Positions 48,353 through 64,000 of a stretch of DNA of 64,000 bases are shown here, one piece after another; the stretch's first letter is position 1; each line of letters opens with the position of its first letter. The notes under the pieces are model-generated. The model ran no database searches, was not told where the DNA came from, and saw only the letters and a list, made by a program, of their open reading frames with translations. The position numbers and the translations under genes were made by a program. Origin of the DNA: Bernardetia sp. (GTDB taxonomy: Bacteria > Bacteroidota > Bacteroidia > Cytophagales > Bernardetiaceae); assembly GCA_020630575.1 (NCBI GenBank), contig JAHDBD010000001.1, positions 301,702 to 365,701 on the forward strand. Direction: 5' to 3'.

Positions 48353-48382
48353 GGAGAGTATCAGACATGAAAGATACCCTCC
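48353..48382. other. Hairpin at the probable left edge of the element
   Basis: GGAGAGTATC (48353-48362) pairs with GATACCCTCC (48373-48382), with one A-C mismatch, around a 10-base loop. It is not followed by T residues. It is the first structured site past the chromosomal terminator and could mark an attachment or recombination site. The other end is outside the window, so this cannot be confirmed. Confidence 0.35.
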
Positions 48383-48475
48383 AAGTAACGACAAAGGCAT
48401 TTTTTTAGCTTATAGTAACCAATTAAGTAACTAAAAATTATAAAAAACACCTCTTAGGCAAGTAGGAAACTACCT

Positions 48476-48973
48476 TTAAAAATTTAAACTAAATAAGTTC
48501 AATTTTTCATTTTTCGGTAGTGTCGTTTTGTTATTACTACTTGCCTTAGCCTTTCCCAAACTCATACTTGTTACTTTTTGAAATGCTTCCATTTGATTCT
48601 TATAGGCTTCTTTTTGAAATTCAATAAATTCACTCTTGACTTTAGAAACTTCATCTTTTGCTTTAGAGATTTCATCTTGTAGTTTATTTACTTTCTCTTG
48701 TACTTCAAGATATTTTCTACTCCACATACTACTCTCTTTGTTGTCTTCAATGTCTAAATTTTTAGACACTTGTATATTTTCGGCAATTTCTCCCAAAAAA
48801 TATGACAAAGGAACGTTGAATAATTCACAAGATTTTGTGATTACTTCTGAATCTAAACTATTCTTTTTATAGAAGTTATAAAGATTGTTTACGCTACAAC
48901 CTAAATATTCAGCTATATAAGCATTTGATTTATCAGAACTTTGGACAAGTTTTTTTAATTTTTTTCCTAGCAT
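48476..48973 (-). CDS. HTH (XRE/CI-like) transcriptional regulator with coiled coil
   Basis: The 165-residue protein has a helix-turn-helix in the first 60 residues (SNAYIAEYLGCSVNNLYNFYKK, then ELFNVPLSYFLGE, the usual XRE end). A long Lys/Glu coiled coil follows (about 85-130), likely for oligomerisation, and then a basic tail. It lacks the S24-type autoprotease domain. It is transcribed leftward, away from the small rightward genes, with a 150-base AT-rich intergenic region full of repeated half-sites between. That layout is typical of a lysogeny switch, so it is probably the element's repressor. Confidence 0.75.
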   Translation of the reverse strand: MLGKKLKKLVQSSDKSNAYIAEYLGCSVNNLYNFYKKNSLDSEVITKSCELFNVPLSYFLGEIAENIQVSKNLDIEDNKESSMWSRKYLEVQEKVNKLQDEISKAKDEVSKVKSEFIEFQKEAYKNQMEAFQKVTSMSLGKAKASSNNKTTLPKNEKLNLFSLNF

Positions 48974-48983
48974 AACTAATTGA

Positions 48984-49065
48984 TTTTCAATAATTTGAAA
49001 AATAATTTATTATAATCAAAATTTATTTCCCAAATATATTTTGATTAATTGAAAAATATTTTGAT
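48984..49065. promoter_or_regulatory. Operator-like repeats between divergent promoters
   Basis: A perfect inverted repeat TTTTCAA (48984-48990)/TTGAAAA (48995-49001) lies near the regulator's start. ATTTTGAT occurs at 49038-49045 and 49058-49065, exactly 20 bases apart, and in reverse at 49015-49022. These are good candidates for binding sites of the adjacent HTH regulator. Confidence 0.45.
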
Positions 49066-49179
49066 ATTTGTGAATGCAATATTGATATATATACAAATAT
49101 ATAGAATTATATCGTAATTTTTGTAATGAAGGTTTCAATATTGCTAAATTTCACTCACACTATTAAACCATTTAATAAT

Positions 49180-49419
49180 ATGGAAACTGGAGAAATAAGA
49201 AAAGAAACACCCTCAAAACCTATTTCTAAAGGCTGTTATACAACATTACCTGAAGATGAAAAAGAGGCTTTATATGGTCGGTTTGATAATAAAGGCATCG
49301 GCTTAAAATGGGTTTTACAAGGTTTATATTTACTATCTGATACAGAGTTTAAAAATGTATGTGATAAGTTAGAACACGCACACACAAGAAATAATGAGCG
49401 ACTTAAAGCAGCTTCTTAA
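49180..49419 (+). CDS. Small early protein of unknown function
   Basis: This is the first rightward gene after the switch region. The frame is open from an ATG at 49126, but a promoter-like TAATTTTTG ends just before that codon, so the ATG at 49180 (METGEIRKE) is preferred, giving 79 residues. The protein contains KGCYTTLPEDEKEALYGRF and a helical second half. It could be a small DNA-binding or regulatory protein, but no family is recognised. It overlaps the next gene by 26 bases. Confidence 0.55.
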   Translation: METGEIRKETPSKPISKGCYTTLPEDEKEALYGRFDNKGIGLKWVLQGLYLLSDTEFKNVCDKLEHAHTRNNERLKAAS

Positions 49420-49570
49420 AGAAGAAAAAAACAGGTATGATGCAGCTAGAAAACGTTTACAAAAGTATAGAGAAATGGAATATGTAAACGGTATTCAAAC
49501 GGAACTCGCTTTAATTGAGGTACACAAAAAGACTATTAAATCACTCAAAAACCAAATTAAAAACGCTTAG
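49394..49570 (+). CDS. 58-residue helical protein, unknown function
   Basis: The short frame starts at ATG 49394 inside the end of the preceding gene. It encodes a charged, wholly helical protein (MSDLKQLLKEEKNRYDAARK ... KSLKNQIKNA), probably a coiled coil. The next gene starts 5 bases past the stop, so the tight spacing supports translation. No homology is recognised. Confidence 0.5.
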   Translation: MSDLKQLLKEEKNRYDAARKRLQKYREMEYVNGIQTELALIEVHKKTIKSLKNQIKNA

Positions 49571-49574
49571 AAAT

Positions 49575-49805
49575 ATGGAATACTTAAATTATTTTTTGCA
49601 TTGCTTAGATTCTATATTAGAAATTTTTAATACAAAAAAAAATATTCTTTCTCTTATTTTAATGCTTATTTCTTCTCTCGTTACTTTGCTTTTATTTGAA
49701 GTGAATAACAGAAAACTGAAAAGAGAAATAAGGGATTTAAAAAGAGAAAATGAGCAGTTAGCTAGTCAAGTTTTTGGTTATGAACTAAGAGAAACCCGTT
49801 TTTAG
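49575..49805 (+). CDS. Small membrane protein with cytoplasmic coiled coil
   Basis: The 76-residue protein begins MEYLNYFLHCLDS; the frame extends 60 bases upstream but would overlap the previous gene. One membrane helix (about 23-41, ILSLILMLISSLVTLLLF) is followed by a charged coiled coil (NRKLKREIRDLKRENEQLAS). The layout resembles small phage spanin-, holin- or anchor-type proteins, without enough to choose. The next start codon comes 2 bases after its stop. Confidence 0.55.
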   Translation: MEYLNYFLHCLDSILEIFNTKKNILSLILMLISSLVTLLLFEVNNRKLKREIRDLKRENEQLASQVFGYELRETRF

Positions 49806-49806
49806 T

Positions 49807-50103
49807 ATGAAAACAACCTTTATAATTTCTCTTTGCTTAGTAGCTATTTTAGTCAATATATCATCATTTGGATATGGCTATTATTTAGGAAGTTACGAGA
49901 AAAAACCACTCACACCAAAAGCAATTTTATTGCTCATTATTAATCTAATTATCAACAAAAAAGATGGAACTACTAAATCAAAAGGCAATAGAGCATCTTC
50001 TAAAAAAAATACTTCAAAAAGGACTAGAAGAAGCAAAGGCGAGGTACACAGGGGACGAATGGCAGCAGGTAAGAAAGCGTTTTTGGGTTTCTTTAGACGA
50101 TAA
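49807..50103 (+). CDS. Small membrane protein with basic C-terminal tail
   Basis: The 98-residue frame opens with a signal-like helix (MKTTFIISLCLVAILVNISS) and a second hydrophobic patch (AILLLIINLII). The remaining 45 residues are strongly basic and low complexity. That tail overlaps the next gene by 140 bases in another frame. The N-terminal half looks real, but the tail may be the by-product of a frameshift or simply a permissive overlap. Confidence 0.4.
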   Translation: MKTTFIISLCLVAILVNISSFGYGYYLGSYEKKPLTPKAILLLIINLIINKKDGTTKSKGNRASSKKNTSKRTRRSKGEVHRGRMAAGKKAFLGFFRR

Positions 50104-50356
50104 TAAAGAACAAACGCTCACTTTTGGATTTGTTACAGGAAGTAAAAAACACACTCAAATACAAGGGTATAGTATTGCAGAACTGAACGCAAAAATCAGC
50201 AAAGCAAATAAACCTATCAATTACGACCCTATTTGTGAAGTATGTGGAAAAGACGAGTATTATTGTCAAGTTTGGAATGAACGAGGAATACCAAATTGTA
50301 TAGCTACAAAAGAGAACCAAAATAAACCTACTAACAATGAACAACACACAGATTAA
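49964..50356 (+). CDS. Cys-containing small protein, unknown function
   Basis: The 130-residue product has a helical start (MELLNQKAIEHLLKKILQKG), a beta-rich middle (KRFWVSLDDNKEQTLTFGFVTGS) and a C-terminal CEVCGKDEYYCQ...C cluster that could bind zinc. Its composition is normal for a coding frame, unlike the overlapping tail of the previous frame. It overlaps the next gene by 20 bases. Function is unknown; the position suggests an early gene. Confidence 0.6.
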   Translation: MELLNQKAIEHLLKKILQKGLEEAKARYTGDEWQQVRKRFWVSLDDNKEQTLTFGFVTGSKKHTQIQGYSIAELNAKISKANKPINYDPICEVCGKDEYYCQVWNERGIPNCIATKENQNKPTNNEQHTD

Positions 50357-50834
50357 AGTCATTGATAAGCGTTTTGATTTGGGTCATGTAGTTCAAAAAA
50401 AGTATTACATTTCTCATCAGGATACTATCAACAAAATAGTAACAGAATCTATCCGTTTCAATGCCACCAAAACACGCAAAAAAGAGAAATTACGGCTCAA
50501 TGCTTTCAATACAGCAAAAGAAATTTACCGTAGTTTCATAAACTCGTACAATGATGGAGATTGTACATTTATAGTGGTTGATGATACAGGAAACGTGTAT
50601 TTTGAAACCTCAAAATGGTTATTAAAACATCATTACACAGCCGTTTGTGATAGCGAAGTTACGGCAGCTAACCATTTAGAACGAATCCATCAAACAGCCA
50701 AGGACGGCTGCAAAGTCTTTTTACCAAATTGGTTAGTACCACCAAAAAAAGTACGATTTGATGCCAATATACGGCTCAAAATAAATACAGATATGTTTGT
50801 CTTCAAAACAAGAAGAGAACGTTTCAAAAGCTAA
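50337..50834 (+). CDS. Early-region protein of unknown function
   Basis: The 165-residue protein is basic with mixed alpha/beta pattern (SIRFNATKTRKKEKLRLNAF, DGDCTFIVVDDTGNVYF, HYTAVCDSEVTAANHLERIH). No recognisable motif is present. It is the last gene before the iteron cluster and shares the direction of the small early genes. A role in replication or DNA binding is possible because of position and charge, but that is inference. Confidence 0.6.
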   Translation: MNNTQIKVIDKRFDLGHVVQKKYYISHQDTINKIVTESIRFNATKTRKKEKLRLNAFNTAKEIYRSFINSYNDGDCTFIVVDDTGNVYFETSKWLLKHHYTAVCDSEVTAANHLERIHQTAKDGCKVFLPNWLVPPKKVRFDANIRLKINTDMFVFKTRRERFKS

Positions 50835-50932: not shown

Positions 50933-51041
50933 TTTATAGCTAATTATTTAAGGCAATAGTTTAAAGCTACTTACGTAGTAAGTACCTTAACCATTTAAAG
51001 CTGATTTTTAAAGCATTTAAAGCAGTATTTATAGCTATAAA
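50933..51041. repeat. Iteron-hairpin-iteron cluster, candidate replication origin
   Basis: Seven copies of an 8-base word close to TTTAAAGC start at 50933, 50947, 50960, 50994, 51007, 51016 and 51028 (variants TTTATAGC and TTTAAGGC). Between the third and fourth lies a perfect hairpin TACTTAC-GTA-GTAAGTA. The last copy is part of the palindrome TTTATAGCTATAAA (51028-51041). The block sits in a 253-base non-coding gap directly upstream of the 51088 gene, as origins of plasmids and small phages often do. Confidence 0.55.
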
Positions 51042-51087: not shown

Positions 51088-52098
51088 ATGAACCAAATCA
51101 ATTTAAACGCTACTGACAGCCCTCAATTTCGCATTGTCTTACTATTTTGGGGAGAATCTGATTTTATTGACACAGAAACTGGAGAATTAAAAAGTTCTCA
51201 AAAAGGCTATCGTATGTCCCCAAAGTGGGGCAAAACTTTGGTAGATATATTCCCATATTTTACAAAAGTCTTAGCAGGACAAACCCAAGAAAATTGGAAA
51301 AATAGAATCCCACGCAAATTAATGATTTATGAAGGTGAAACAGAAATTTTCAGACTTCCACAAGGAACTGGAGCAATTACAGACCGAAAAGGAAACGTAC
51401 AACAACGATTAAAAAGCCTCAAAGAGTGGCGAGAATGTATTGAATTGTATGAGCGAACAAATGGTCGTCAATTCAGGACTTCGTTTAACCAAGAGCCTAA
51501 AAACGTACAAAAATCAGTACAAGTGTACAACTCTAAACCTCATGTAGCCTTTCAATCAAATATTGATGTTGAAGAACGTGAAAAAGACCAAGAAAGACTG
51601 CAAAAAATTAAGGTTTGGGAGGAAATCAAAACTCAATTTGATAAGGAAAATCTTAGTGTTGATGCAAATGATGAGAAACATATCAAAAGAGAACTTTTAC
51701 TCCGAAATATTCAACATTTAGATTCATTTTTTGATGATGCCATGATTTATTTACGAAAAGCTCATGAGCGTTACCAAGTTGCAATCCGTGAAGCTGAACA
51801 AATTATAAAACAAAAAAATATTGAAGCTGCAACGGTTTCGAAAGATAGATACCAAGAGTTTAAATCTCCAGTAGGTTTCCGTTCCACTCCAAAAGTAACG
51901 ACAAATTCAAATCCTTCTTTGGATAACAAAAAAGCGCAAGCCGTACAGGAGCTATGCAATTTATACAAAGAAAAAAAAGGCAAAGAACCTGCATACGGAC
52001 GTGTTTCTATTTGGCAAAATGTTATGCTTAAATCTCGTTCAGAGGTTCAAATTGAAAAAAATATTTTTGATATAAAACATACGCATAACCTTTTTTAA
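51088..52098 (+). CDS. Unrecognised 336-residue protein, possible replication initiator
   Basis: The protein starts 47 bases after the iteron block. Its first 120 residues are beta-rich with aromatic and Gly-rich turns (FRIVLLFWGESDFIDTETGE, PRKLMIYEGETEIFRLPQG). The second half is charged and helical (about 165-250). A C-terminal segment KAQAVQELCNLYKEKKGKEP could be a DNA-binding helix pair. I see no HUH, RepA_N, primase or helicase motif. Placement next to iterons is the only argument for an initiator role. It could also be an ssDNA-binding or regulatory protein. Confidence 0.6.
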   Translation: MNQINLNATDSPQFRIVLLFWGESDFIDTETGELKSSQKGYRMSPKWGKTLVDIFPYFTKVLAGQTQENWKNRIPRKLMIYEGETEIFRLPQGTGAITDRKGNVQQRLKSLKEWRECIELYERTNGRQFRTSFNQEPKNVQKSVQVYNSKPHVAFQSNIDVEEREKDQERLQKIKVWEEIKTQFDKENLSVDANDEKHIKRELLLRNIQHLDSFFDDAMIYLRKAHERYQVAIREAEQIIKQKNIEAATVSKDRYQEFKSPVGFRSTPKVTTNSNPSLDNKKAQAVQELCNLYKEKKGKEPAYGRVSIWQNVMLKSRSEVQIEKNIFDIKHTHNLF

Positions 52099-52395: not shown

Positions 52396-52397
52396 TT

Positions 52398-52841: not shown

Positions 52842-54209
52842 ATGGCAAATCAAGATAAAAACCCAAATCCTACACCACAGGAGCAGCCGAAAAAAACAGC
52901 AGTCACACCAAGTGAAGCTCACGACTTAGACAAATATACAGACACACTGGAAGAAACAGAACAATACGGTTATTATTCCGAAGCTGAGAAGTTATTAAAA
53001 CCAATTCCTTACGCAAAAAAGAACCGTAAAAAATATGTTTTTGCTACTGGTTACGCAGCTTTCTATCACTTCATTTCATTCATTTTAGGAGTAGCAACAA
53101 TTTTTTTAATTACCAAACTTCTGATTGATGAGGATAATCCTATCACGTTTCTTTTTTCAGCTCTTATCTACATTATTCTAGTAGCTATTTTGGGAGGTTT
53201 GGAATTATTCAAATCAAATGCTAGTACAGATGTTTTCAAAGCAATAGCCAAAGAAGAAACACCGACCACAGGAGCAAAATTTGGAATGTTTGGAACATTC
53301 GTTTTATCTGTGATTATTTCAGCTATTGGAGGAGGTTTTTTGAGTATAGAATTAAACGATAAAACGGATTCTATTCAGAATACTAGCCAAATTGAAACGG
53401 ATTCTTTGAAAAACTTGTACAGCTCACAAATTGCAGCTTACGACAGCTCTATGAACTCAGCTCAAAAAACGCTAATCCGATATAAAACAGGTTGGAGAGC
53501 AAATACAGCTAGAGCCGATTTAGAGAAAGCAACAGCAGCCAAAAATGAAATTTTGGATAAGCTGGACGGAAAACTGACGACTTCTCAAAAAATTTCTGAT
53601 GCTAAAATTTTGCTTGCAGATAAAGAAAATTTTGATTTATCCTTGTTAGTCGGTTTTATTGTTTTCTTTCTTGAATGCTTCTGTATTTTGGCTTATAGAT
53701 ACAAATTTATCTATTTAAGGAATTGCGAAAGAGAAGGCGTTAATTTCGGAATACTTCAAAAGAAAAACGCTTTAGACGATAGAAAGAACAATGATTTTGA
53801 TATGAATGATATAACCGAATCAATCAAAGATTTATTCAAAAATTTATCTTCTTCTATTCAGAATCAAGCAACTCAAACCTTTTCAGAACCGAATAAAGCC
53901 TATTCAAGACAAAGTGCAGGTTTTCATACTTACAGTTCTGAATATAAAACCGAATCAAAACGGAATCCGATAGGTTTTGATTACACTCAACGTAAAGACA
54001 ATGACCGTTCTAACGTTCACCGTAATAACGATGACCGTAATACGGTGACCGTGGGTAGTGAAAAACAGCGAAAACGAAAGTGTAAATACTGCAATACTGA
54101 ATTTGAGTACAAACACTGGAATAAAACCTATTGCAATGACGAATGTAGAGGGTTGATGTGGGAGCAAAAAACAGGGCAAAAACTTAAATTCAATACTAAA
54201 TCTAAATAA
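52842..54209 (+). CDS. Four-helix membrane protein with C-terminal zinc-ribbon-like motif
   Basis: The 455-residue protein has a Pro/Gln-rich head and three hydrophobic helices within about 70-185 (HFISFILGVATIFLITKLL, FSALIYIILVAILGGLELF, GMFGTFVLSVIISAIGGGF). A helical loop of about 80 residues follows, with a fourth helix near 265-285 (LSLLVGFIVFFLECFCILAY). The polar, Asn/Asp/Arg-rich tail ends in CKYCNTEFEYKHWNKTYC plus a final CxxxC-type partner, which likely binds zinc. I do not recognise the family. A membrane anchor that recruits DNA or a protein to the envelope would fit. The stop is followed by a convergent terminator shared with the restriction-modification gene. Confidence 0.6.
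   Translation: MANQDKNPNPTPQEQPKKTAVTPSEAHDLDKYTDTLEETEQYGYYSEAEKLLKPIPYAKKNRKKYVFATGYAAFYHFISFILGVATIFLITKLLIDEDNPITFLFSALIYIILVAILGGLELFKSNASTDVFKAIAKEETPTTGAKFGMFGTFVLSVIISAIGGGFLSIELNDKTDSIQNTSQIETDSLKNLYSSQIAAYDSSMNSAQKTLIRYKTGWRANTARADLEKATAAKNEILDKLDGKLTTSQKISDAKILLADKENFDLSLLVGFIVFFLECFCILAYRYKFIYLRNCEREGVNFGILQKKNALDDRKNNDFDMNDITESIKDLFKNLSSSIQNQATQTFSEPNKAYSRQSAGFHTYSSEYKTESKRNPIGFDYTQRKDNDRSNVHRNNDDRNTVTVGSEKQRKRKCKYCNTEFEYKHWNKTYCNDECRGLMWEQKTGQKLKFNTKSK
54001..54058. repeat. Degenerate 15-bp tandem repeats inside the membrane protein gene
   Basis: Four units in a row share a GACCGT or CACCGT core: ATGACCGTTCTAACG, TTCACCGTAATAACG, ATGACCGTAATACG and GTGACCGTGGGTAG. Two palindromes, ACCGTAATACGGT and ACGGTGACCGT, lie within. 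They encode the DRSNVHRNNDDRNTVTVG stretch. Confidence 0.5.
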
Positions 54210-54259: not shown

Positions 54260-57250
54260 TTAATCCAATCCTTTAACAATAGCTATTTCCTCCTCAGTAA
54301 GTCCATAGAGTTCGAACACTAAACTATCTATTTGGTCATCTATACTTTGTATTTCTTTATGAAGAACTAATAAATCTTTTTTATAACCTGTAAAATATTT
54401 TTCCCACTCATCTTGCACATAAGGAGAGATAATAGACTTTGATTTTTCTTGTTTCTTACTAATCTCTTTGAGAAATTCTGCAAATCTAAGGTCATAAAAC
54501 TTTTCTAATTTTTTAGGGAAAGATTTTAGTTTAAAATTATCTTGCACACGACGGAGAAAACGATTTTTTTTGTCCAAAAAATCATCATTCAGGGAAAGTA
54601 TATTATTTACTAAATCTATAAAAGGTTTTTGAGCTTCTTCTGATATTTTAGGTATAGGAAGTTCTTTTAATTGATAACCTTTAATTTTAGGGAAGAGTTG
54701 TTTACCATCTGAATATTTGGATAACCAATAACATTTAATTGTATTTGAATTGAGTATAGCTAAAATATACTTTATATTAAAAGATTTATTTTTTAAATTC
54801 AGATTGTATAATGTATTAGAAGCAAGTATATCTTTTTTGCATAATCCAACTATGGGAGTTTTACCAATTTGTCTAACTACAATTCTTTCTTCACTATAAA
54901 CATCATAATTTCCTCCACTTTTTATGTTATAATCTGAAAAATTGAAAAATTTTGTAGGTAAAGAATATTGATAAGGAAAGACATCTCCCCCATCTATGAT
55001 AGGTTTATACTCTTTATTAATTTTTATCTCGGATATAGCTGTTTTTCTATCATAGGCTTGTATTCCAAAATAACTATCACAAATTTGTGATAAAGAAATA
55101 CATTTTTCTAAATTAATTTTAAATTCTAATTTTGAATTAAAAATACACTCATTATTATTTTTCCAATTGTTCTGTGGTATCTCAGTAACTAAATTCCACT
55201 TTTTATCATTAGCAAGTATAATTTCAATTTTGTTGTTTTCTCTTTGTTCTTTCGTTAAAATTAGTGTAGAAACATCAACTCCAGCATCTACAAAAACAGT
55301 ATTTTCATAAGTTATTAGCTTATTAATTGATGAGTGATCAAGTATATAAACTCTTAATGGTTTTATATATTTATTAGTTAGGTAAGTATTAGGAGTGATA
55401 AAACCTAGTTTTCCTTTGTTAATTAAAAGGTTTATTGATTTTTCAAAGAATAAGTGAAATAAATCAATTTTATAACTTGCTACTTTATATCTTTTATAAT
55501 ACTCTAATGTTTTCTCAGAAGTGTTAGAAGGTTGGCAAAGTACATAGGGAGGATTTCCAATGATAACATCAAAACCTCCTTTTTCAAAGACTTGTGGAAA
55601 TTCTTTTTGCCAATTAAATGCTTTATTTCCTGCAATTCCGACATTTTTAATAAGGGAGTTTCCTACTTTTAAATTGTCATTCAAAGTTGTTAATTTTCGT
55701 CCTTTTTGCGCTGTTCTTATCCATAGAGAAAGTTTAGCAATTTCAACAGATTCTTCATTAATATCAACACCAAAAATGTTGTTTTTTAATATTTCATTTT
55801 CAAGATTAGAGTCATTTGCTGTTTTTCCAAGCCATTTTTTTTCTAGTTCATTTAAGTATCTATGCTCACTTATCAAAAATTCTAATGCTTCGTTTAAAAA
55901 TGCTCCACTTCCACATGCAGGGTCGCAAATGGTAATTTGTAATAACCAAGTTCTATATGATTGAAGGGTGTTTTGAAGTTTTGTGATAATCTTTTTATCT
56001 TTTATAGGTTTTCCATCCTCAGTAACATAATTCTCTTCTATGATACCTAATTCTTGTTTTTTTTCTATACAAATACTTCCTATTGTATTGTCTACTATAT
56101 ATTTAGTAATATATTTAGGTGTATAGAAAACTCCATCTTTTTTTCTTCGTGTAGTGGTTTTTTCAAATTCTCTCTCTTCTATTTCGGCTTGAATTTCTTC
56201 AAACTCATTCATAGAATGCTCAAAGATATGCCCTAAGATGTTTACACTTACTTCACTATCAAAGTCGTATCCACTTATTTTTGCTGTATGACGAGCAAGT
56301 AATCTATCATCAATTTTTAGACTTTCTAGTAGTTCGTCAGGTGCAAAAAGACCTCCATTGTAGGGGAAAATATCATCATACTCGTCTTTTTTTCCTGTAT
56401 TCAGATAGCCAAAATATGTTTTATATTTATCATAAAGAGGAATTTTAATACTATGCTTTCTTTCAAGTTCTCTCCAATCATTTATAATTCTTTCTACTGA
56501 TTTAGGTGGAATCAATGATTTGTCTTCTGCAAAGAAAATAAACAAAAAACGGTCTAAGAGTTTTTGTGTTTTTTTGAAAAGTAAAAGTTTTTCGTGGTTA
56601 GGATTTAATTGTTGAATGCTTTTAAAAACATCACTTCTAAATTCTGCATAATCTTTATATAGATTCTTAGTAATAACCTCCTCATCTGAAATTGATTGAC
56701 TTTTAGCACTTTCAGGAGCATTAAAACGTAATTTTTCCTCAGCTAAACAAAAGTAAAGTAACTTAAATCGTTCTCTAGTGATAGTAAAAAGATTAAACTC
56801 TTCAAATTCAACAGCATCGTGGATATAAAAACGTAGCTTCTCAAAATTAGAAGTGATGACATAGACACATTCTGATTGATTATTTTTATAATTAAATGCT
56901 TGTTGTTCTACTTTTGAAAGGTCAGTAGTATCCATTCCCTTTAATTCAATTACAGCAAGAACCTTATCTCTTCTTAATATTGCTCCATCTGTCTTCTTTG
57001 CATTCCTTACATTTTTAAGCTCAGTAGTTAAATTAAATTTTGGATTAGGATTTTTAGTATATCCAAAAACATTAACAAACAAATCTGTTAAGAATCCTTC
57101 TTGATACTGCTCTTCTTTAGAACGTCGTATATTCTCTTGAACTTCTAGGTTATGAAAATGAGCTGTGAACTTTTTCCATGCTTCTTCTACTTTATTTTCA
57201 TACAGAGATGCTAAAGCTCTTTTAATTACTAGAGGGTGAAATAAACTCAT
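54260..57250 (-). CDS. Type IIG (Eco57I-like) restriction-modification enzyme
   Basis: The 996-residue protein combines endonuclease, adenine methyltransferase and target recognition in one chain. A PD-(D/E)xK-type nuclease site is visible as TDGAI (Asp88) and VIELKG (Glu102, Lys104). The methyltransferase core has GVFYTP (373-378), SAM motif I DPACGSG (443-449) and catalytic motif IV GNPPY (565-569), typical of gamma-class N6-adenine enzymes. The C-terminal third resembles a TaqI-like specificity domain and ends in a coiled coil. All key residues are present, so it should be active. It reads against the surrounding element genes and is bracketed by bidirectional terminators, which marks it as cargo. 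Its recognition sequence cannot be predicted. Confidence 0.85.
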   Translation of the reverse strand: MSLFHPLVIKRALASLYENKVEEAWKKFTAHFHNLEVQENIRRSKEEQYQEGFLTDLFVNVFGYTKNPNPKFNLTTELKNVRNAKKTDGAILRRDKVLAVIELKGMDTTDLSKVEQQAFNYKNNQSECVYVITSNFEKLRFYIHDAVEFEEFNLFTITRERFKLLYFCLAEEKLRFNAPESAKSQSISDEEVITKNLYKDYAEFRSDVFKSIQQLNPNHEKLLLFKKTQKLLDRFLFIFFAEDKSLIPPKSVERIINDWRELERKHSIKIPLYDKYKTYFGYLNTGKKDEYDDIFPYNGGLFAPDELLESLKIDDRLLARHTAKISGYDFDSEVSVNILGHIFEHSMNEFEEIQAEIEEREFEKTTTRRKKDGVFYTPKYITKYIVDNTIGSICIEKKQELGIIEENYVTEDGKPIKDKKIITKLQNTLQSYRTWLLQITICDPACGSGAFLNEALEFLISEHRYLNELEKKWLGKTANDSNLENEILKNNIFGVDINEESVEIAKLSLWIRTAQKGRKLTTLNDNLKVGNSLIKNVGIAGNKAFNWQKEFPQVFEKGGFDVIIGNPPYVLCQPSNTSEKTLEYYKRYKVASYKIDLFHLFFEKSINLLINKGKLGFITPNTYLTNKYIKPLRVYILDHSSINKLITYENTVFVDAGVDVSTLILTKEQRENNKIEIILANDKKWNLVTEIPQNNWKNNNECIFNSKLEFKINLEKCISLSQICDSYFGIQAYDRKTAISEIKINKEYKPIIDGGDVFPYQYSLPTKFFNFSDYNIKSGGNYDVYSEERIVVRQIGKTPIVGLCKKDILASNTLYNLNLKNKSFNIKYILAILNSNTIKCYWLSKYSDGKQLFPKIKGYQLKELPIPKISEEAQKPFIDLVNNILSLNDDFLDKKNRFLRRVQDNFKLKSFPKKLEKFYDLRFAEFLKEISKKQEKSKSIISPYVQDEWEKYFTGYKKDLLVLHKEIQSIDDQIDSLVFELYGLTEEEIAIVKGLD

Positions 57251-57557: not shown

Positions 57558-57765
57558 TATGCGTTTTACTCAAATCAGATATACAAATATATAATTATAT
57601 ATATATGTATATCAAAATATAAAAAATACATTGAATATTTATACATTATTTGTGTTTTTAGTAAAAAAGTACGTATTTTTAGAGTGTGTATAATAGTGAT
57701 AGATTCTGAAATAATACGCTATTTTGGACTTTCTACTATGTACCACTTACTTACTTTTTTATTTT

Positions 57766-58488
57766 ATGCCAAGAGCTAAATTTTATCCTCATGAAAAAAC
57801 GCTTCATGATTTACGTTTGAAACAAGATGATTTACCTGAATTAATTCAAAATGAAATTGATTTATGGAAAAAAAACAAACTCAAAACTGGTTATCACAAA
57901 GAATATGTTGAAGAAAGTGAACAAATAGCTTCACTTATTCAAGAATGGCAAGCCGAACCTTCTTTGTATGAGGAATCAGAGCAGTTTGATAGTATTGGTT
58001 CAAACGCTTCAATAACAAATGATTTTGAAATTAATGAGGAAAATGAGGATTTGGAACAAGAACAAATTGATACAGAAATTGAGGAACTTGAAAAGCAACT
58101 CAATGAAGACGATAAAGTTGAATCATTACCGAATCATTCAGATACCGAATTGTTATTAACAACTAACGAAGGTGTAAAAGTAGGGATTTTACATGACGCT
58201 CCCGAATCTGAAATACAAACAGGCTTATTCGTTCCTATTCCGAATCAATCAAATCCGTTTTACAACTCACTCAATAAAATTGAAAAGTTGTGTTACACTT
58301 TACTCAAAGAAGTAAAAGAGAACCAAATAGAACAACCTGTATTCAGTTTGGAATATTTGAAAAGTAGAGGATTGAATGATGGTTTTTGGTCTAACTTTTC
58401 AAAACTATCAGGATATGAAGGAAAGCATTTTGATATGATTCGTGTTTCCTCAACTCCTTTGTATTTCCAAATCAAACAAAAATCTTAA
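57766..58488 (+). CDS. Acidic protein of unknown function
   Basis: The frame is open from a TTG at 57724, but the ATG at 57766 (MPRAKFYPHEK) gives a better N-terminus and 240 residues. The first 60 residues are helical and charged, the middle (about 65-125) is a Glu/Asp-rich low-complexity linker, and the C-terminal 75 residues look globular (SLNKIEKLCYTLLKEVKENQ ... STPLYFQIKQKS). No motif is recognised. It is the first gene of the second rightward operon of the element, 12 bases before the next gene. Confidence 0.6.
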   Translation: MPRAKFYPHEKTLHDLRLKQDDLPELIQNEIDLWKKNKLKTGYHKEYVEESEQIASLIQEWQAEPSLYEESEQFDSIGSNASITNDFEINEENEDLEQEQIDTEIEELEKQLNEDDKVESLPNHSDTELLLTTNEGVKVGILHDAPESEIQTGLFVPIPNQSNPFYNSLNKIEKLCYTLLKEVKENQIEQPVFSLEYLKSRGLNDGFWSNFSKLSGYEGKHFDMIRVSSTPLYFQIKQKS

Positions 58489-58500: not shown

Positions 58501-58971
58501 ATGTTAGAAATGCTATTACCTCAATTCGCTAAACAATTTAAGACACGTTTAATCGAATTAGAGAAGGAAAACCAAGCTACTTTTAGACTTACAATGGAAA
58601 GTATGCCGATGTTACAGCAAGACATGGAAAGTATCAAATACCGTGTTTTTCTGCGTTTTTGGCAAAAAGATGAAACTATTGAAGGTTGTGTAGAAGAAAT
58701 ATTAATTTCTTCTGTGATAGAACAGCAATTATCAAATCCACAAATTCAGATGTATTTGAAAATGATGCCACAAGAAATCAATATCAATAGTTTTTTAGAA
58801 GATTATTTTACAGAAAATAAGACTAAAAATAAAGCTGATAAATTCTTCTTTATGATGTCTTTAGTTGATGCAAAAAATAAAATTACTAGAAAGCCTATCA
58901 AAAAAGGACTTTTTCAAATGCTTGTTCAGACAGGCTCACAATTTAAAGTTTTACAAAAATTTGAAGTATAA
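58501..58971 (+). CDS. Protein of unknown function
   Basis: The 156-residue protein is mostly helical (LLPQFAKQFKTRLIELEKEN, INSFLEDYFTENKTKNKADK), with a short beta patch around IKYRVFLRFWQKDETIEG. No domain or catalytic motif is recognised. Its TAA shares a base with the ATG of the next gene (TAATG), showing translational coupling, so it probably acts with the following HTH protein. Confidence 0.55.
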   Translation: MLEMLLPQFAKQFKTRLIELEKENQATFRLTMESMPMLQQDMESIKYRVFLRFWQKDETIEGCVEEILISSVIEQQLSNPQIQMYLKMMPQEININSFLEDYFTENKTKNKADKFFFMMSLVDAKNKITRKPIKKGLFQMLVQTGSQFKVLQKFEV

Positions 58972-59441
58972 TGAATCAAACAACGCAAATCTTTACTCAA
59001 TTAGATACTACATTATCTAGCCTTATTGGAAATTTAGGACTTATCAAAACGCTTGAAATGCTCAAAGAATTTGATAAAGGTTTGCCGTTTTTTCTTCCTC
59101 AAAACCCCCAAACAACAACCGAAAAATTACACGACTTTATTTTACATAGTCTAGCTCAACACGCTCAAATAAACAAAAATCTTTTATTAACGAGTAGCAA
59201 ACACTATCATTCTGATTTGAGAAAAATTGCTTTTGTCTTGCTTTTTGAATTTGGTTTGAAAGTTCCTGAAATAGCCAAATTATACTCAAGAGATAATCGT
59301 TTTGTAGCCAAAAACATAAACGATATGATTTACTTACTTACTTCCAAACACGCCAATATAGAATTTAAAACTTTGTATGACAGACTTACAAGCCAAATCA
59401 ACACCTACCGAAGCATTAGAAACGGAAACGACGGAAACTGA
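58971..59441 (+). CDS. Helix-turn-helix protein resembling DnaA domain IV
   Basis: The 156-residue protein carries, at about 83-123, LRKIAFVLLFEFGLKVPEIA followed by KLYSRDNRFVAKNINDM. This follows the pattern of DnaA domain IV (R-x-IA helix, PEIG-like turn, RDHSTV recognition segment). The upstream 80 residues are helical and unrecognised, and no AAA+ domain is present. A role in binding repeated DNA sites, such as the iterons at 50933-51041, is an attractive inference. The Trp-repressor-like HTH fold is shared by several families, so DnaA relationship is not proven. It starts coupled to the previous gene and overlaps the next by 65 bases. Confidence 0.55.
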   Translation: MNQTTQIFTQLDTTLSSLIGNLGLIKTLEMLKEFDKGLPFFLPQNPQTTTEKLHDFILHSLAQHAQINKNLLLTSSKHYHSDLRKIAFVLLFEFGLKVPEIAKLYSRDNRFVAKNINDMIYLLTSKHANIEFKTLYDRLTSQINTYRSIRNGNDGN

Positions 59442-60102
59442 CCCAACAGATTTTTCACCTTTTAATGCTCCTATGATTGATAGAGAATTTGATACTTCTT
59501 TTTCTTCTCCTTTTGACATTCCAGAAAGTGAAATAGAAGAAGAAGAGCTAGAAGAAGTAGAAGAATTTAAGCCACAATCAGATCCGACACCTAGCGAATT
59601 TGAGGAAGAAAAACCAAAATTCAATCCCAAATTTGCAGAGCTGACAAGCAAAACGGTTTTGAATGTTTTAGAGCGTTTCTTGCCTAAAGCAGCCTTTCAC
59701 TTTGCAGAAATTGACACTTCACAACTTGATGGAATAGAAGTAGCCGAAGGAACAATCGAAACCTTAGAAGAACACAATAAGGAAAATTTCGACACGCTGC
59801 AAAGTGAAATTTCAGATAATATACAGCTCATTGCAGAACCATTTAAAGCCGTCATGGAAAAGCGAGATATGAATATTTCGCCTGAAACAATGCTCATCAT
59901 GACCTTTGTTTTTATGATGGCAAATGTAGCTTTTACGACTATGAAAATGAGGAAGCAAAACGAAAGAATGATACTTAAAATTATTGCGCTAAACACTCCA
60001 AAAGAAGAGAAAAAGGAAGATGATAAAACAGCAGATTCAAACCCAAGAGATACTACTAAATCTAAAGGAAACGACAAATCAGACACCTCAAAAACTGAAT
60101 AG
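59377..60102 (+). CDS. Acidic single-helix membrane protein
   Basis: The 241-residue protein has an acidic, Thr/Glu/Pro-rich N-terminal half (about 1-85, including ESEIEEEELEEVEEFK). A helical region follows, then one hydrophobic helix near 168-186 (MLIMTFVFMMANVAFTTM) and a charged Lys/Asp/Thr tail. The layout suggests a membrane-associated structural or scaffold protein of the element. No family is recognised. The first 65 bases overlap the HTH gene, and its end overlaps the methyltransferase frame by 83 bases. Confidence 0.55.
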   Translation: MTDLQAKSTPTEALETETTETDPTDFSPFNAPMIDREFDTSFSSPFDIPESEIEEEELEEVEEFKPQSDPTPSEFEEEKPKFNPKFAELTSKTVLNVLERFLPKAAFHFAEIDTSQLDGIEVAEGTIETLEEHNKENFDTLQSEISDNIQLIAEPFKAVMEKRDMNISPETMLIMTFVFMMANVAFTTMKMRKQNERMILKIIALNTPKEEKKEDDKTADSNPRDTTKSKGNDKSDTSKTE

Positions 60103-60748
60103 GATTTACAAAATGGATTGTTTAGATGGATTGAGAAAAATCAAATCTAAATCTATTCGCTTAATCGTTGCAGACCCTCCATATTTTTTAGGAATGACAC
60201 ACAACGGACACAAAGGAGAGTTTGTTGATTTAGCTATCTGTAAACCGTTTTATTCCGAATTATTCAAAGAATTTAAGCGTGTTCTTACTGACGATGGTTC
60301 TATTTTCTTCTTTTGCGATTGGAGAGGATATGCTTTTTACTATCCTATTTTTGATTCTTTTATTGGTGCAAAAAATTTATTGATTTGGGATAAAACCTCA
60401 GCAGCAGGCAATTTTTATTCCTACAATCAGGAGCTTATTATTTTTCATTCTCATTCAAAATTCAATAAGGGAGGTTCTTGTATTTGGTCTGAAAAATCGT
60501 TTGCTAGTGGTGCAAAAAAGACAAATGGAGAGAAAGTTCATGCTACTCAAAAACCTATTGAAATCATTGAACGAATGATTTTAGATACAACAAATGAAAA
60601 TGATTTTGTTCTTGACCCTTTTTGTGGGAGTGGTACTTCGGCATTTGCAGCCAAAAAGCTAAACAGGAATTTTATAGGCTTTGAACTCAATGATAAATAT
60701 TTTGATGTTATTGAGGAGCGTAAAAACAAACTTTTTATTGATATATGA
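60020..60748 (+). CDS. Orphan DNA methyltransferase (N6-adenine/N4-cytosine, beta-class)
   Basis: The 242-residue enzyme has the catalytic motif DPPYF at 52-56 preceding SAM motif I DPFCGSG at 199-205, an order typical of the beta class. The N-terminal NRIYKMDCLDGL and the HATQKPIEIIERMI segment are family hallmarks. The start at 60020 keeps NRIYK; the ATG at 60113 would cut into it. There is no target recognition domain beyond the core and no cognate nuclease next to it, so it is an orphan enzyme, as in many phages. It may protect element DNA or regulate its replication. Its stop overlaps the ATPase start (ATGA). Confidence 0.85.
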   Translation: MIKQQIQTQEILLNLKETTNQTPQKLNRIYKMDCLDGLRKIKSKSIRLIVADPPYFLGMTHNGHKGEFVDLAICKPFYSELFKEFKRVLTDDGSIFFFCDWRGYAFYYPIFDSFIGAKNLLIWDKTSAAGNFYSYNQELIIFHSHSKFNKGGSCIWSEKSFASGAKKTNGEKVHATQKPIEIIERMILDTTNENDFVLDPFCGSGTSAFAAKKLNRNFIGFELNDKYFDVIEERKNKLFIDI

Positions 60749-61494
60749 ACAGTAGAGAACCTCATTTAATCGTTGCCACAGGAACAAAAGGAGTGGGTAA
60801 GACTTTCACAACGCTAAAGGAAATGAAAAACTATATCAAAAACCAAAAGAAAAAAGTAGTTGTTTTTGATACAAATTACCCTTATGAAACGTCTTACTCT
60901 CCTTTCAAAAGTATTGCTATTTGGGATTTACCCAAGCTCAAAAAAGCCGAAATAAGGCGAATCTTACCCATAAATAGGAACGGTTCGCCTATGAGTGTTC
61001 AAGACAAAGAAGATGCTTTAAATGAGATTTTAAATAACTTTTCTGATGGCTTACTGGTGTTAGAAGATATAAATTCTTATTTGATTGCACCAAAGTCAGT
61101 AGATGTAATTAATGCCCTTACGACAAATAGACACCGAAAAATGGATATAATGCTACACTATCAAAGTCTTTCGGCACTCTTTCCTAGAATTTGGCAAAAT
61201 ATGGCAGCCGTAAGATTCCATTATCAAATGGACGATGTAAACCGATACAAAAGCCGAATACCAAATTTTGAATTAATGAAATTAGCTCAATTAATTGTAA
61301 ACTATGAGTATGAACAGCAAAACAATAAGCGTTTTTTTATTTATGTTAATTTTTACGATTCTCGTATTTTGGGAGCTACCAAAAAACAAATCAACAGAGC
61401 AGCTCAGGAGCTATACAGAAGGTATAAAAATCTCAGAAATGGACTTACAGAAAAAGAATTTATTTCTTCTATGCTGTCTAAGTACACAAATTAA
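60745..61494 (+). CDS. FtsK/HerA-type P-loop ATPase, probable DNA packaging ATPase
   Basis: The 249-residue ATPase has Walker A GTKGVGKT (13-20) and Walker B LLVLED (103-108). TNRHRKMDIMLHYQSLS (127-143) corresponds to the Arg- and Gln-containing segment of FtsK/HerA enzymes before the sensor strand. Size and layout fit the compact packaging ATPases of tailless double-jelly-roll phages (A32/PM2 P9-like), and also Zot-like proteins of filamentous phages. The presence of a capsid-like gene downstream favours packaging. It is coupled to the methyltransferase gene by a 4-base overlap. The family is well supported; the packaging role is inferred. Confidence 0.7.
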   Translation: MNSREPHLIVATGTKGVGKTFTTLKEMKNYIKNQKKKVVVFDTNYPYETSYSPFKSIAIWDLPKLKKAEIRRILPINRNGSPMSVQDKEDALNEILNNFSDGLLVLEDINSYLIAPKSVDVINALTTNRHRKMDIMLHYQSLSALFPRIWQNMAAVRFHYQMDDVNRYKSRIPNFELMKLAQLIVNYEYEQQNNKRFFIYVNFYDSRILGATKKQINRAAQELYRRYKNLRNGLTEKEFISSMLSKYTN

Positions 61495-61660
61495 CTTTTT
61501 CTTTTCCTTACCCTCGTTTTACACAAAACGCATTTGTGTAACCGTTCCTTTTTATTATCCTAAAGTAGTGATAAAGAAGAGGAAAAAATGGGTTTGAGAG
61601 CTAGTTAAATTATATCTCTCCTAGTGTATAGGTTGAAAACCAAATCAGATTATAATTAAA

Positions 61661-61706
61661 AAAATCCTTTAAAACTATAAAAATGAGTTTTGAAGGATTT
61701 TTTTTG
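61661..61706 (+). terminator. Terminator after the ATPase gene
   Basis: AAAATCCTTTAAAACT (61661-61676) pairs with AGTTTTGAAGGATTTT (61686-61701), apart from one mismatch or bulge, and runs into T residues. It would separate the ATPase operon from the structural-gene operon. Confidence 0.75.
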
Positions 61707-61724
61707 TTTGTGTTAATCAGCAAA

Positions 61725-61908: not shown

Positions 61909-62064
61909 ATGAATTATAAAGAACTAGCACTTATTTCAGTTGCCTCAATGGTAGGAGCAATCCTGACAGCTATTATAGTAGAAGCATGGGTAAAACCTAC
62001 AATTCAAACTAGAATAGACAAGAAAGCAGCGAAAAAAGCAGCCACAGAAGCAGTAGCAGCTTAA
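61909..62064 (+). CDS. 51-residue single-helix membrane peptide
   Basis: The short frame encodes MNYKELALISVASMVGAILT followed by AIIVEAWV and an Ala/Lys-rich tail (DKKAAKKAATEAVAA). One N-terminal membrane helix and a basic amphipathic end resemble the small membrane proteins of phages with an internal lipid layer. A 12-codon leader frame starts at 61881 and its stop overlaps this start. It is 70 bases upstream of the capsid-like gene. No family match can be claimed. Confidence 0.6.
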   Translation: MNYKELALISVASMVGAILTAIIVEAWVKPTIQTRIDKKAAKKAATEAVAA

Positions 62065-62134: not shown

Positions 62135-62941
62135 ATGAAACGAACACAATTAGAACGTTACGAACAAGAAGCAGAAAATCAATTCTCCAACTACCATGGT
62201 GATGAGGATTTTGACGAATATACAGAAGGCTACGACGACGACGAAGACTACGACGACGACGAAGACTACGACGACGACGAAGACTACGACGACGAGGAGG
62301 ACTTCACAGGCGTTAGCACTGTAACAGGCACAAACAAGACAGGAAAACGTCACTTAACTTTCCGTATCAAAAACGAAGAAGTTGATGGAAGCAATAATCC
62401 TATTGCAACGACTGTTACACTCTTTGGAGCTTACGGAAGTTACACAGCAAATCCAAAAATACCTATCACACTTGATGAAGGCGATTATGCAGCTTTTCTT
62501 TCGGAAATTGCAGCCAACCCTCACACGCTCGTAAATCCTAGATACCGAGTGAAACAACCAAATCAGTATGCCAACTCTTTTGAAGTAAAGAAAATTGAAG
62601 CATCAGGACAGGTCAGCTCACAACGTATTCAGCCACAGAATTACGAAGACCCACGCAACAACATTCAAAACCTTATCCTAATGGATAACTTCGGATTAGT
62701 TGCAGATGGTCGTACTTCACTTACTTTCAAAATGGAAGCAGGCGAAGAAATTTCACTTGCTTTTGAAATTGCAGCTCGTGTAAATAACTCTCTGTTATTG
62801 ACAGGAGGTAGCGCAGCTCCAAAGATGAAATCTAAAAAAGGAGGTTGTGGTTGTAAAAATAAAGGTGGACGTAGTCGTGGAAATGGTGGACGTGCTAAAC
62901 GTGGTGGACGTGGTGGAAACCGTCGTCGTCGTAACTACTAG
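62135..62941 (+). CDS. Probable major capsid protein with Asp-rich repeat and Arg/Gly-rich tail
   Basis: The 268-residue protein has three parts. Residues 1-58 are extremely acidic with a YDDDED repeat at 33-56. Residues about 72-225 form a beta-rich domain (HLTFRIKNEEVDGSNNP, TTVTLFGAYGSYTANPKIPI, LTFKMEAGEEISLAFEIAAR) suggestive of jelly-roll strands. Residues 228-268 are a Gly/Arg/Lys tail with GCGCKNKGG and RRRR, likely to bind nucleic acid. Length is close to the PM2 capsid protein. Its place after a packaging-type ATPase and next to several small membrane proteins supports a capsid role. No sequence homology was tested. A nucleoid-like or other structural protein is the alternative. Confidence 0.5.
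   Translation: MKRTQLERYEQEAENQFSNYHGDEDFDEYTEGYDDDEDYDDDEDYDDDEDYDDEEDFTGVSTVTGTNKTGKRHLTFRIKNEEVDGSNNPIATTVTLFGAYGSYTANPKIPITLDEGDYAAFLSEIAANPHTLVNPRYRVKQPNQYANSFEVKKIEASGQVSSQRIQPQNYEDPRNNIQNLILMDNFGLVADGRTSLTFKMEAGEEISLAFEIAARVNNSLLLTGGSAAPKMKSKKGGCGCKNKGGRSRGNGGRAKRGGRGGNRRRRNY
62231..62302 (+). repeat. Four 18-bp tandem repeats encoding YDDDED
   Basis: Three exact copies of TACGACGACGACGAAGAC and a fourth that varies at three positions lie end to end. The block is clearly more GC-rich than the surrounding element DNA. Slippage could change the copy number without breaking the frame. Confidence 0.9.
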
Positions 62942-62949
62942 AAAGGAGG
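62942..62949 (+). promoter_or_regulatory. Strong Shine-Dalgarno sequence
   Basis: AAAGGAGG ends 4 bases before the ATG at 62954. Such a perfect site is unusual in Bacteroidota, whose genes mostly lack one. It supports the start codon of the following gene. Confidence 0.7.
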
Positions 62950-62953
62950 CACA

Positions 62954-63460
62954 ATGAGAAAGCCTAATAACCTTAAAAATCTCATTGCTTACACGATTCA
63001 ACAAAACCCAAGAGGAGTGCAAAAACTAGGTAATTCGTATGGCGAATTACCTTACAATTATAGAGAACCTATCGGCAACTACCTCACAAAAGTTTGTTTG
63101 AATATTGTAAAAAATGAAGGTATAGAGGCTTTACTTCTTGCACACCCTGACAGAAACCTATTTAAAACAAAATTTGAAAGTGAGTTTGTCAATGCTCAAA
63201 AAGACGATAAACTCAGCCTTTCAAATTCTATTGAAAATAAAAAGAAAGCCGTATCAGAGCCGAATACCATGCACTCGTTTACTCACTTTAAACAAGTACC
63301 GATTAGCTCGTTTACTTCCTCAAACGACTTTTCGAATTTCTTCGGCGCACAGCAAAACGAAGAACAGAATAATTCCACAAAAACAGCCTTTTGGGCTATT
63401 GGTATAGTAGTTCTGATAATGCTTTCTTTTTTCTTTATGCACCTTCTAAATAAAAAATAA
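62954..63460 (+). CDS. Membrane-anchored protein of unknown function, likely structural
   Basis: The 168-residue protein has an N-terminal basic region (MRKPNNLKNLIAYTIQQNPR), a helical middle, a Ser/Asn-rich linker and one C-terminal membrane helix (about 147-163, FWAIGIVVLIMLSFFFMHLL). This is the layout of a tail-anchored protein. It starts 12 bases after the capsid-like gene with a strong Shine-Dalgarno sequence, suggesting high expression. A virion membrane protein is the likely role. The next gene starts 1 base after its stop. Confidence 0.6.
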   Translation: MRKPNNLKNLIAYTIQQNPRGVQKLGNSYGELPYNYREPIGNYLTKVCLNIVKNEGIEALLLAHPDRNLFKTKFESEFVNAQKDDKLSLSNSIENKKKAVSEPNTMHSFTHFKQVPISSFTSSNDFSNFFGAQQNEEQNNSTKTAFWAIGIVVLIMLSFFFMHLLNKK

Positions 63461-63461
63461 T

Positions 63462-63743
63462 ATGAGTGCAGGATTAATAGAAGCTGGACTTCAATCCGTA
63501 AATGGGATAACAAATCTGATAGGCTCAGGGCAACGACGTAAAGCACAACAAGCCGAACACCGTAACCAAATGGTGCAAATGATTCTAGCTAGTAGAATGC
63601 AACAAAATCAGCAGAATCCAACCCAAAACGGAAGCTCAAACCCAATAGAGAAAAGTAACACAGGTTTTCTGATTGGTGGATTAGCATTAATTATAATCGT
63701 ACTTATAGGTATAATCGTATGGAAACAGCAACAAAAGGCGTAG
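63462..63743 (+). CDS. Single-helix membrane protein, likely structural
   Basis: The 93-residue protein opens SAGLIEAGLQSVNGITNLIG, a Gly-rich amphipathic region, continues Gln/Asn/Arg-rich, and ends with a membrane helix (about 69-88, FLIGGLALIIIVLIGIIVW). The N-terminal pattern recalls DNA-delivery or pilot-type membrane proteins of small phages, but that is only resemblance. Its last 25 bases overlap the next gene in another frame. Confidence 0.6.
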   Translation: MSAGLIEAGLQSVNGITNLIGSGQRRKAQQAEHRNQMVQMILASRMQQNQQNPTQNGSSNPIEKSNTGFLIGGLALIIIVLIGIIVWKQQQKA

Positions 63744-64000
63744 AGGATTTTTTAGGAATTTGCTTAGGGGGAAAGCGATGTAAAGCACGTAGAAAATCTC
63801 GCCAAGAAAACAGAAAACAGAGAAGAAGTATAAAAACTGAAAAGCTAAGAGCCAAAAAAGATGCTTTAGTATTGGATAACCAAGCCAGTGCTAGTTCAAA
63901 TGAATTGTTAAATCAAATTGTTAGCCCTCAACAACAAGGTTTATTTAAACAATCAGTAGCACAGCAAAAAACACTTCCTCCAGTTCCACAAAACCCTCCT
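63719..64000 (+). CDS. Basic protein running off the window (partial)
   Basis: The frame starts at ATG 63719, inside the end of the preceding gene, and is open for 94 codons to the right edge. The visible part begins METATKGVEDFLGICLGGKR, is strongly basic (KARRKSRQENRKQRRSIK) and then becomes Gln/Ser/Pro-rich. It is probably another structural or DNA-associated protein of the element. The C-terminus is not seen. Confidence 0.55.
   Translation, partial: METATKGVEDFLGICLGGKRCKARRKSRQENRKQRRSIKTEKLRAKKDALVLDNQASASSNELLNQIVSPQQQGLFKQSVAQQKTLPPVPQNPP

Follow-up and report, generated by a model that had tools for sequence, protein, structure and literature searches.

What kind of element occupies the right-hand end of contig C31 of a Bernardetia sp. 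assembly, where a putative regulator gene beside a tRNA gene is followed by genes for an FtsK/HerA-type ATPase, a capsid-like protein and several small membrane proteins? Tailless double-stranded DNA phages are scarce and difficult to detect from sequence. The window analysed here is the last 64 kb (64,000 nucleotides) of this 365,701-bp contig, base 64000 being the contig end, in a 5.31-Mb host assembly of 94 contigs that is 84.5% complete. A sequence-only reading of positions 48353 to 64000 had proposed an undescribed prophage with a tailless, membrane-phage-like gene set, possibly of double-jelly-roll (DJR) type. The analysis below suggests that the element, likely a provirus, probably belongs to an undescribed lineage of temperate, tailless and probably membrane-containing phages, known from genes alone, which would work like Varidnaviria and stand nearest to their single-jelly-roll side. 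The prophage-like character, the late module of the type proposed and the absence of a match in annotated phage records were thus borne out, and the DJR label was not.

Integration was assessed by comparison with a same-species genome, G080, in which the ATPase is absent. The DNA of G080 and that of the window agree to 97% in 45194-47600 and to 89% in 48235-48365, after which homology ends, and at this point G080 carries an intact tRNA-Ala(GGC) gene, which represents the element-free site. The G080 sequence past the tRNA matches contig C41 of the window's own genome at 98%, and C41 carries an intact tRNA-Ala followed, on the element side, by a gene for a tyrosine recombinase (PF00589) of 382 amino acids (aa). 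The 16-bp core TGTGGAGAGTATCAGA, searched by its last 14 bases in 13 stretches of the same genome, occurs once in the window (48350) and once on C41 (1717). The end of homology in the tRNA gene and the recurrence of the core beside the tRNA and integrase genes of C41 place the element within a tRNA gene, its left end carrying the regulator and its right end the integrase. Three features of temperate phages, namely an integrase, attachment sites and an empty site, are therefore present. The window covers the left 15.65 kb of the element only, and its right half was read from sister copies on contigs C35, C91 and C88. Since the window and C88 share their final 55 bases, of which a 39-base piece occurs nowhere else in the assembly, the segment following the window end appears to be a collapsed repeat absent from the bin. 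C35 adds at least 8 kb and C41 1.7 kb, so that the element is estimated to span at least 25 kb.

The ATPase encoded at 60745 is confidently predicted to adopt a B204-like fold, B204 of the Turriviridae being the closest solved fold and ranking first for the model by both Foldseek and VIA. A packaging ATPase of the FtsK/HerA superfamily is a feature of Varidnaviria-type tailless viruses, with which the predicted fold agrees. At the profile level, hhalign returned probabilities of 87%, 23% and 4% for the ATPases of P23-77, PM2 and PRD1, respectively. Sequence searches of solved structures gave HerA (E 0.05) as the best match of alignment A2 and none for alignment A3, and a scan of viral contigs with a single ATPase sequence was unproductive.

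The capsid candidate encoded at 62135 has a predicted single core of about 150 residues (residues 70-222), the size of one jelly-roll domain. With moderate confidence in this core and weak fold matches, mostly to jelly rolls, the protein is predicted to fold as a single jelly roll; the earlier proposal had named a fold unrelated to jelly rolls as speaking against it, and no such fold appeared. P23-77 VP16 and VP17 were not among the 50 VIA rows listed for the model, which excludes nothing, and a scan of viral contigs with the capsid alignment A1 was unproductive. The DJR major capsid protein (MCP) typical of Bamfordvirae was not recognised in this one-domain candidate. Among the stretches compared, no conserved family of at least 250 aa without a transmembrane (TM) segment was seen beyond the ATPase, c2, c5 and partly c7, which leaves no other good DJR candidate, and the DJR-type assignment was rejected on both grounds. 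Because of the one-domain core and the lack of another DJR candidate, the nearest known architecture is the single-jelly-roll, Helvetiavirae-like one rather than that of PM2, PRD1 or FLiP.

The conservation of these two genes was followed in two sets of loci. The first comprised 18 stretches selected by the ATPase, from which L031, L033, L035, L037, L040, L041, L043 and L097 had been dropped as short, near-duplicate or weak, together with the weak loci L054-L056 and L059 (G226, G283, G040); L029 and L030, the named records of G083 and G055, were counted once. The second comprised 9 new stretches from 7 genomes selected by the capsid profile and, as the late-module hidden Markov models (HMMs) were built from the 18 stretches, only these 9 test them; the six HMMs tried on a control of 137 open reading frames (ORFs) gave 0 matches. 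In the first set the ATPase was found in all 18 stretches, the capsid family in 16, c3 in 15 and the peptidase-like c5 in 13, some stretches ending before c5. The ATPase and capsid genes lie on the same stretch in five of the seven capsid-selected genomes, and the remaining two showed no ATPase on the stretch read (the G391 contig is 5.3 kb long, and in G511 the capsid gene is preceded by 18 kb of other genes). Over all 27 stretches, the ATPase occurs in 23 and the capsid family in 21 of those 23, L028 and L030 being without it. Across 17 loci, distances of the ATPase and the capsid protein were correlated (rho 0.64; 0 of 2000 permutations as high), as were those of the ATPase and c5 (0.45; 0/2000) and of the capsid protein and c5 (0.28; 6/2000).

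The sister copies carry the same late genes as the window, with capsid proteins 97% (C88, over residues 41-268) and 57% (C35) identical and ATPases 99% and 84% identical, respectively. Downstream of the counterpart of the window's last gene, C35 encodes TM proteins and a metallopeptidase-like protein (PF18894, below cut-off). These are followed by a lysin-like protein with PG_binding_3, a protein with LPD1, TM and PG_binding_1 proteins and, lastly, a fibre, whose gene is the only point at which this late region is truncated. C91 matches 3.3 kb of the continuation at 74% identity. Proteins with one hydrophobic segment are frequent among the late genes, and a TM-like segment, by a hydropathy threshold (KD19 peak over 1.6), is present in 13 of 29 late ORFs of C35, consistent with an internal lipid membrane.

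In the first set, the 16 loci with a match had one predicted jelly-roll gene apiece. A second match to the capsid HMM (E 3e-5 to 3e-10) was found in proteins of 523-646 aa in five genomes of one branch (G663, G464, G303, G391 and G511, with 383 aa visible in G511), encoded downstream of c5. In these proteins a beta-propeller precedes the match (assigned to Lactonase/YNCE families in the three that were scanned; surface-layer protein 1l0q for G303), and a stretch ahead of the propeller that may be the front part of this jelly roll is not significant alone (i-Evalues 1.1 to 18). The propeller-bearing protein may thus be a spike-bearing capsid paralogue. The capsid matches of G663 and G464 each contain one TAG, the called ORFs measuring 288 and 282 aa, respectively.

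Tail and packaging families were sought by Pfam scans of 10 window and 10 C35 late proteins, PHROG scans of 7 and 3 of these, and scans of IMG/VR proteins (53 from three stretches, namely 33 of L034, 18 of L039 and 2 of L036, and 52 larger ones from two contigs of 60 and 75 kb). No terminase, portal or tail family reached the Pfam cut-off in the window and C35 proteins, and no relaxase or transfer family did so in the proteins scanned. The sequence-only reading had named terminase, tail or conjugation genes just past 64000 as an outcome that would speak against it, and none was found at cut-off among the C35 proteins scanned. Named matches of the 53 IMG/VR proteins were endolysins, RusA, transglycosylase, nucleotidyltransferase and phrog_2666; the 52 larger proteins matched 24 Pfam families, with no tail machinery except fibre-type collagen and the peptidase S74 chaperone, and ten G297 proteins scanned singly matched no structural family. 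A tailed phage was rejected, since none of the Caudoviricetes features (terminase, portal, HK97 MCP, tail genes) was recognised above cut-off in the window, C35 and IMG/VR proteins scanned. Several observations weigh against a tailless phage, namely a match of phrog_2666 'terminase large subunit' to the ATPase (5e-5), a sub-threshold Phage_TAC_3 match of L012:15904-16266 (E 0.018) and, among the 25 of 69 PHROG families listed for the 52 larger proteins, at least seven named 'tail fiber', at least two 'tail protein', at least one 'collagen like minor tail' and at least one 'virion structural protein'. Each of these families has two members, and they are presumably the collagen-repeat proteins.

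The same genes may be read in other ways. In a DJR tailless phage, the 62135 product would be only a penton or minor capsid protein and the true MCP a gene that escaped recognition; this is unlikely, as the 62135 gene occupies the place of the MCP gene in PM2, PRD1 and P23-77, and the other proteins of at least 200 aa in the C35 late region are the ATPase, TM proteins, the metallopeptidase-like c5, a lysin-like protein, LPD1, c7 and the fibre. A filamentous-phage or secretion-type element, with the ATPase as a Zot-like assembly motor and the 51-aa TM peptide as coat protein, would account for a weak Pfam Zot match (E 0.11), for the Zot annotation precomputed for 3 of 120 listed ATPase homologues and for the Zot N-terminal domain (2r2a, E 1.8e-5) as the first non-B204 Foldseek row. 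This reading of the ATPase was rejected, given the first rank of B204 in both fold searches and the absence of the Inoviridae feature, and such an element is very improbable.

Much the same low probability attaches to a conjugative or mobilisable element, or a defence island that merely recruited phage-like genes. The best Pfam match of the ATPase, to TrwB_AAD_bind, is sub-threshold (E 7e-4) and the best fold is B204, on which grounds a conjugation ATPase was rejected; L012:13991 matches TraI_2 at chance level (E 0.2), LPD1 and ART-PolyVal domains lie nearby, and much of the cargo is restriction-like. Against this, two ATPases had no tblastn match in 72,556 plasmids, lysin-like, peptidoglycan-binding and fibre genes are present, and IMG/VR contigs share the same module. 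It is also most doubtful that the element is defective, or a satellite that borrows helper-phage particles, as might be supposed from the several related elements in the same genome, which differ in their late modules and show signs of a tandem arrangement, and from a smaller C88 element without late-module matches in the part scanned; the C35 copy has its own ATPase, capsid candidate, lysin-like proteins and fibre, and the motor and capsid genes recur together in five of the seven further genomes described above.

Compared with known systems, the element, read as a tailless phage with a predicted single-jelly-roll capsid, most resembles P23-77 (Matshushitaviridae, Helvetiavirae), which shares a similar-sized FtsK/HerA packaging ATPase related at the profile level, the order ATPase, small ORFs and small MCP, many small structural proteins and lysins, and single-jelly-roll capsid proteins (here predicted). 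P23-77 differs in encoding two adjacent MCPs (VP16 and VP17) in 17 kb, whereas one jelly-roll gene is seen in the Bernardetia and IMG/VR branches, and another branch has, past c5, an additional one that bears a propeller; the capsid proteins showed no sequence similarity by hhalign, and membership of Helvetiavirae is unproven. PM2 and PRD1 (Corticoviridae/Tectiviridae) share the tailless membrane-phage logic and the order ATPase, small ORF(s) and MCP (P9 being the ATPase in PM2), but have DJR MCPs and genomes of 10-15 kb. The Turriviridae (STIV, STIV2), which provide the closest ATPase fold, have archaeal hosts and a DJR MCP (coat protein B345, 345 aa). FLiP (Finnlakeviridae) is tailless and shares the host phylum Bacteroidota but, in the available sections of its description, has a DJR MCP and a circular single-stranded DNA (ssDNA) genome of 9.2 kb without a packaging ATPase (PMC5894146); an ATPase is present here, the hhalign capsid probability is 0.1%, and none of 11 late-module HMMs matched FLiP ORFs below E 0.005 (best c4, 0.009). 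SPV1 (Portogloboviridae) has one single-jelly-roll MCP, as predicted here, but is an archaeal virus described, in the sections available, without a packaging ATPase (PMC8812541), unlike the present element. Matches of the c4 HMM, a TM/low-complexity profile, to STIV, PRD1, P23-77 and FLiP proteins (E 2e-4 to 0.009), like the chance-level rows given by other HMMs, were rejected as homology and attributed to composition.

The ATPase was detected in 13 of 291 genomes of the order, its own included (three weakly, best E 8e-13 to 1e-17), and in 1 of 395 genomes of a phylum sample, its own only; the capsid profile was found in 8 of 395 genomes of the class, again including its own. Long contigs of named organisms (Kordia algicida OT-1, Croceibacter atlanticus and Aquimarina) also encode relatives of the capsid protein. 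A listed capsid-candidate protein that looks identical, by eye, to that of a same-genus genome (G052, L086) is assigned to Bernardetia sp., in agreement with the host. Six proteins of the element and its relatives (three ATPases, two capsid candidates and c5) gave 0 tblastn matches in 50,697 annotated phage records, and a literature search, in which subscription journals and bioRxiv were thinly covered, found no paper describing the lineage. End repeats were not found in two IMG/VR contigs (G293 read to base 60,000 of 60,303), and eight records that were looked up give neither an end class nor a completeness value; 28 of the 91 ORFs of G297 match a G293 ORF.

Table 1. Features of the element in window coordinates, with supporting observations.
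Feature	Position	Strand	Observation
attL core TGTGGAGAGTATCAGA, 3' end of tRNA-Ala(GGC) gene; left end of element	48350..48365	.	Homology to G080 ends; second core on C41 (L101)
165-aa divergent regulator; putative helix-turn-helix (HTH), from sequence	48476..48973	-	Homologue at left end of C88 copy; weaker one in C63 (25% identity)
Small early genes	49126..50834	+	At least two with homologues in C88
Two imperfect 20-nt direct repeats upstream of 51088; weak iteron candidate	50989..51030	+	
336-aa early protein of unknown function	51088..52098	+	92% identical homologue in C63
455-aa early-region membrane protein	52842..54209	+	Homologues in C88 and C63
996-aa MmeI/Eco57I-like type IIG restriction-modification protein, cargo	54260..57250	-	Pfam PF07669 1.5e-45, PF12950, PF20473
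Late protein c7, first gene of conserved late module	57724..58488	+	HMM in 20/27 stretches
Late protein, family 21, Bernardetia branch only	58501..58971	+	4/18 loci
Late protein c1a	58971..59441	+	21/27 stretches
Late protein c1b, acidic N-terminus, one hydrophobic segment	59377..60102	+	23/27 stretches
N6/N4 DNA methyltransferase, cargo; other genes in its place in C35	60020..60748	+	PF01555 6e-39
Genome-packaging ATPase, predicted B204-like FtsK/HerA fold	60745..61494	+	
51-aa single-TM peptide, ATPase/capsid interval	61909..62064	+	KD19 2.15 in C35 homologue
Predicted single-jelly-roll capsid protein: acidic N-tail, core 70-222, Arg-rich C-tail	62135..62941	+	
Late membrane protein c3, C-terminal TM, 'HPD' motif domain	62954..63460	+	22/27 stretches
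Late membrane protein c4	63462..63743	+	20/27 stretches
Second c4-like membrane protein, cut by contig end	63719..64000	+	

The gene list and order given by the sequence-only reading were recovered from the ORFs (Table 1), except that it had omitted the type IIG gene, which is missing from the corresponding place in C88. Its HTH switch stands as a regulator gene, for which no Pfam HTH match was obtained, and its iterons are reduced to a single weak pair. That the 51088 product is a replication initiator is only a guess. An inverted repeat of ~46 bp lies at 61658-61704, between the ATPase and the TM peptide, and is also matched on both strands at C63:44407-44448; a repeat of ~38 bp at 46271-46310, matched on both strands, has many copies in each of four related genomes searched.

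The interval between the ATPase and capsid genes ranges from 0.3 kb (L034) and 0.6 kb (window) through 1.6 kb (C35), 5.8 kb (G303) and 7 kb (G464) to 20.3 kb (G663) and 24 kb (G403). Nine of ten slot proteins of G403 and G663 matched PADLOC models, the names being annotations and the functions predicted: mad7, PglW/mad6-like, MTase_II/mad2 and PDC-M16A/B in G403, and type III restriction-modification, LmuB-like and a weak REase_II in G663. The motor-capsid slot takes up cargo, which in these two relatives consists mostly of restriction- or defence-like genes. Genes of restriction type in the window copy lie at two further positions, 54260 and 60020. The slot of C35 encodes a 104-aa Cas2-like protein (L012:5923-6237; PF09827, E 4.9e-5, just at cut-off). 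In G464, SNF2 helicase and Eco57I-methylase proteins (L127:6268-14308; ART-PolyVal below cut-off) just upstream of the late module recall polyvalent packaged proteins of other phages, and the 75-kb contig G297, with the ATPase-capsid module, encodes a 4183-aa collagen-like-repeat protein beside methyltransferase- and glycosyltransferase-like genes (L109:5923-18474).

Related elements occur elsewhere in the window's genome. A sibling apparently runs from C63 (L080, C63:1-16200) through C28 (L079) to an integrase and tRNA-Val on C17 (L081, C17:1-1740), joined by exact 55-bp overlaps. Its C63 early genes are 85-92% like those at 51088 and 52842, and its late module differs (a transglutaminase-like 729-aa protein, a 317-aa acidic-tailed protein, an SNF2 helicase, Amidase_2 and a fibre), c6 alone of the late-module HMMs matching, which is possibly a swap of the whole virion module. 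On C88 (C88:15649-30757; L011/L083), the presence of two integrases, each with a regulator beside it, suggests that related elements are arrayed in tandem. The one lying between these integrases, with a primase and a 621-aa helicase-like protein, could be a satellite.

In the proposed life cycle of the phage, the predicted jelly-roll protein would form the shell of tailless, probably membrane-lined icosahedral particles, and the ATPase would likely pump DNA through a vertex into the preformed capsid. An internal membrane would hold the small TM proteins, and in one branch the propeller-bearing paralogue may make the spike. Lysis may proceed via the muramidase-like and peptidoglycan-binding proteins, while the 48476 regulator would maintain lysogeny and the integrase on C41 mediate the exit from it.

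It may tentatively be suggested, at somewhat less than even odds, that these genomes represent a new high-rank lineage of Bacteroidota tailless DNA phages, in which a B204/FtsK-type motor is combined with one single-jelly-roll capsid gene, bridging SPV1-like viruses (one single jelly roll, no ATPase) and Helvetiavirae (two single jelly rolls and an ATPase), and in one branch of which a duplicated jelly roll gained a beta-propeller spike. If so, the relatives on 60-85 kb contigs would, to our knowledge, be larger than any other tailless virus of prokaryotes. In the sections available of the sources, the ATPase-less ssDNA FLiP group alone represents tailless jelly-roll phages in Bacteroidota (PMC5894146, PMC8328091, PMC6414509, PMC8812541), and in two of these sources, likewise as far as available, a common origin of single- and double-jelly-roll varidnaviruses is debated (PMC8812541, PMC8328091). 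Prophages that combine a packaging motor of their own with a single-jelly-roll capsid would be relevant to this debate, and the named relatives make the lineage testable in culture. Because defence-like genes sit in the motor-capsid slot, such prophages may spread antiphage systems among marine bacteria and, if the proposed lineage is real, the fixed slot would make these phages carriers of whole defence islands.

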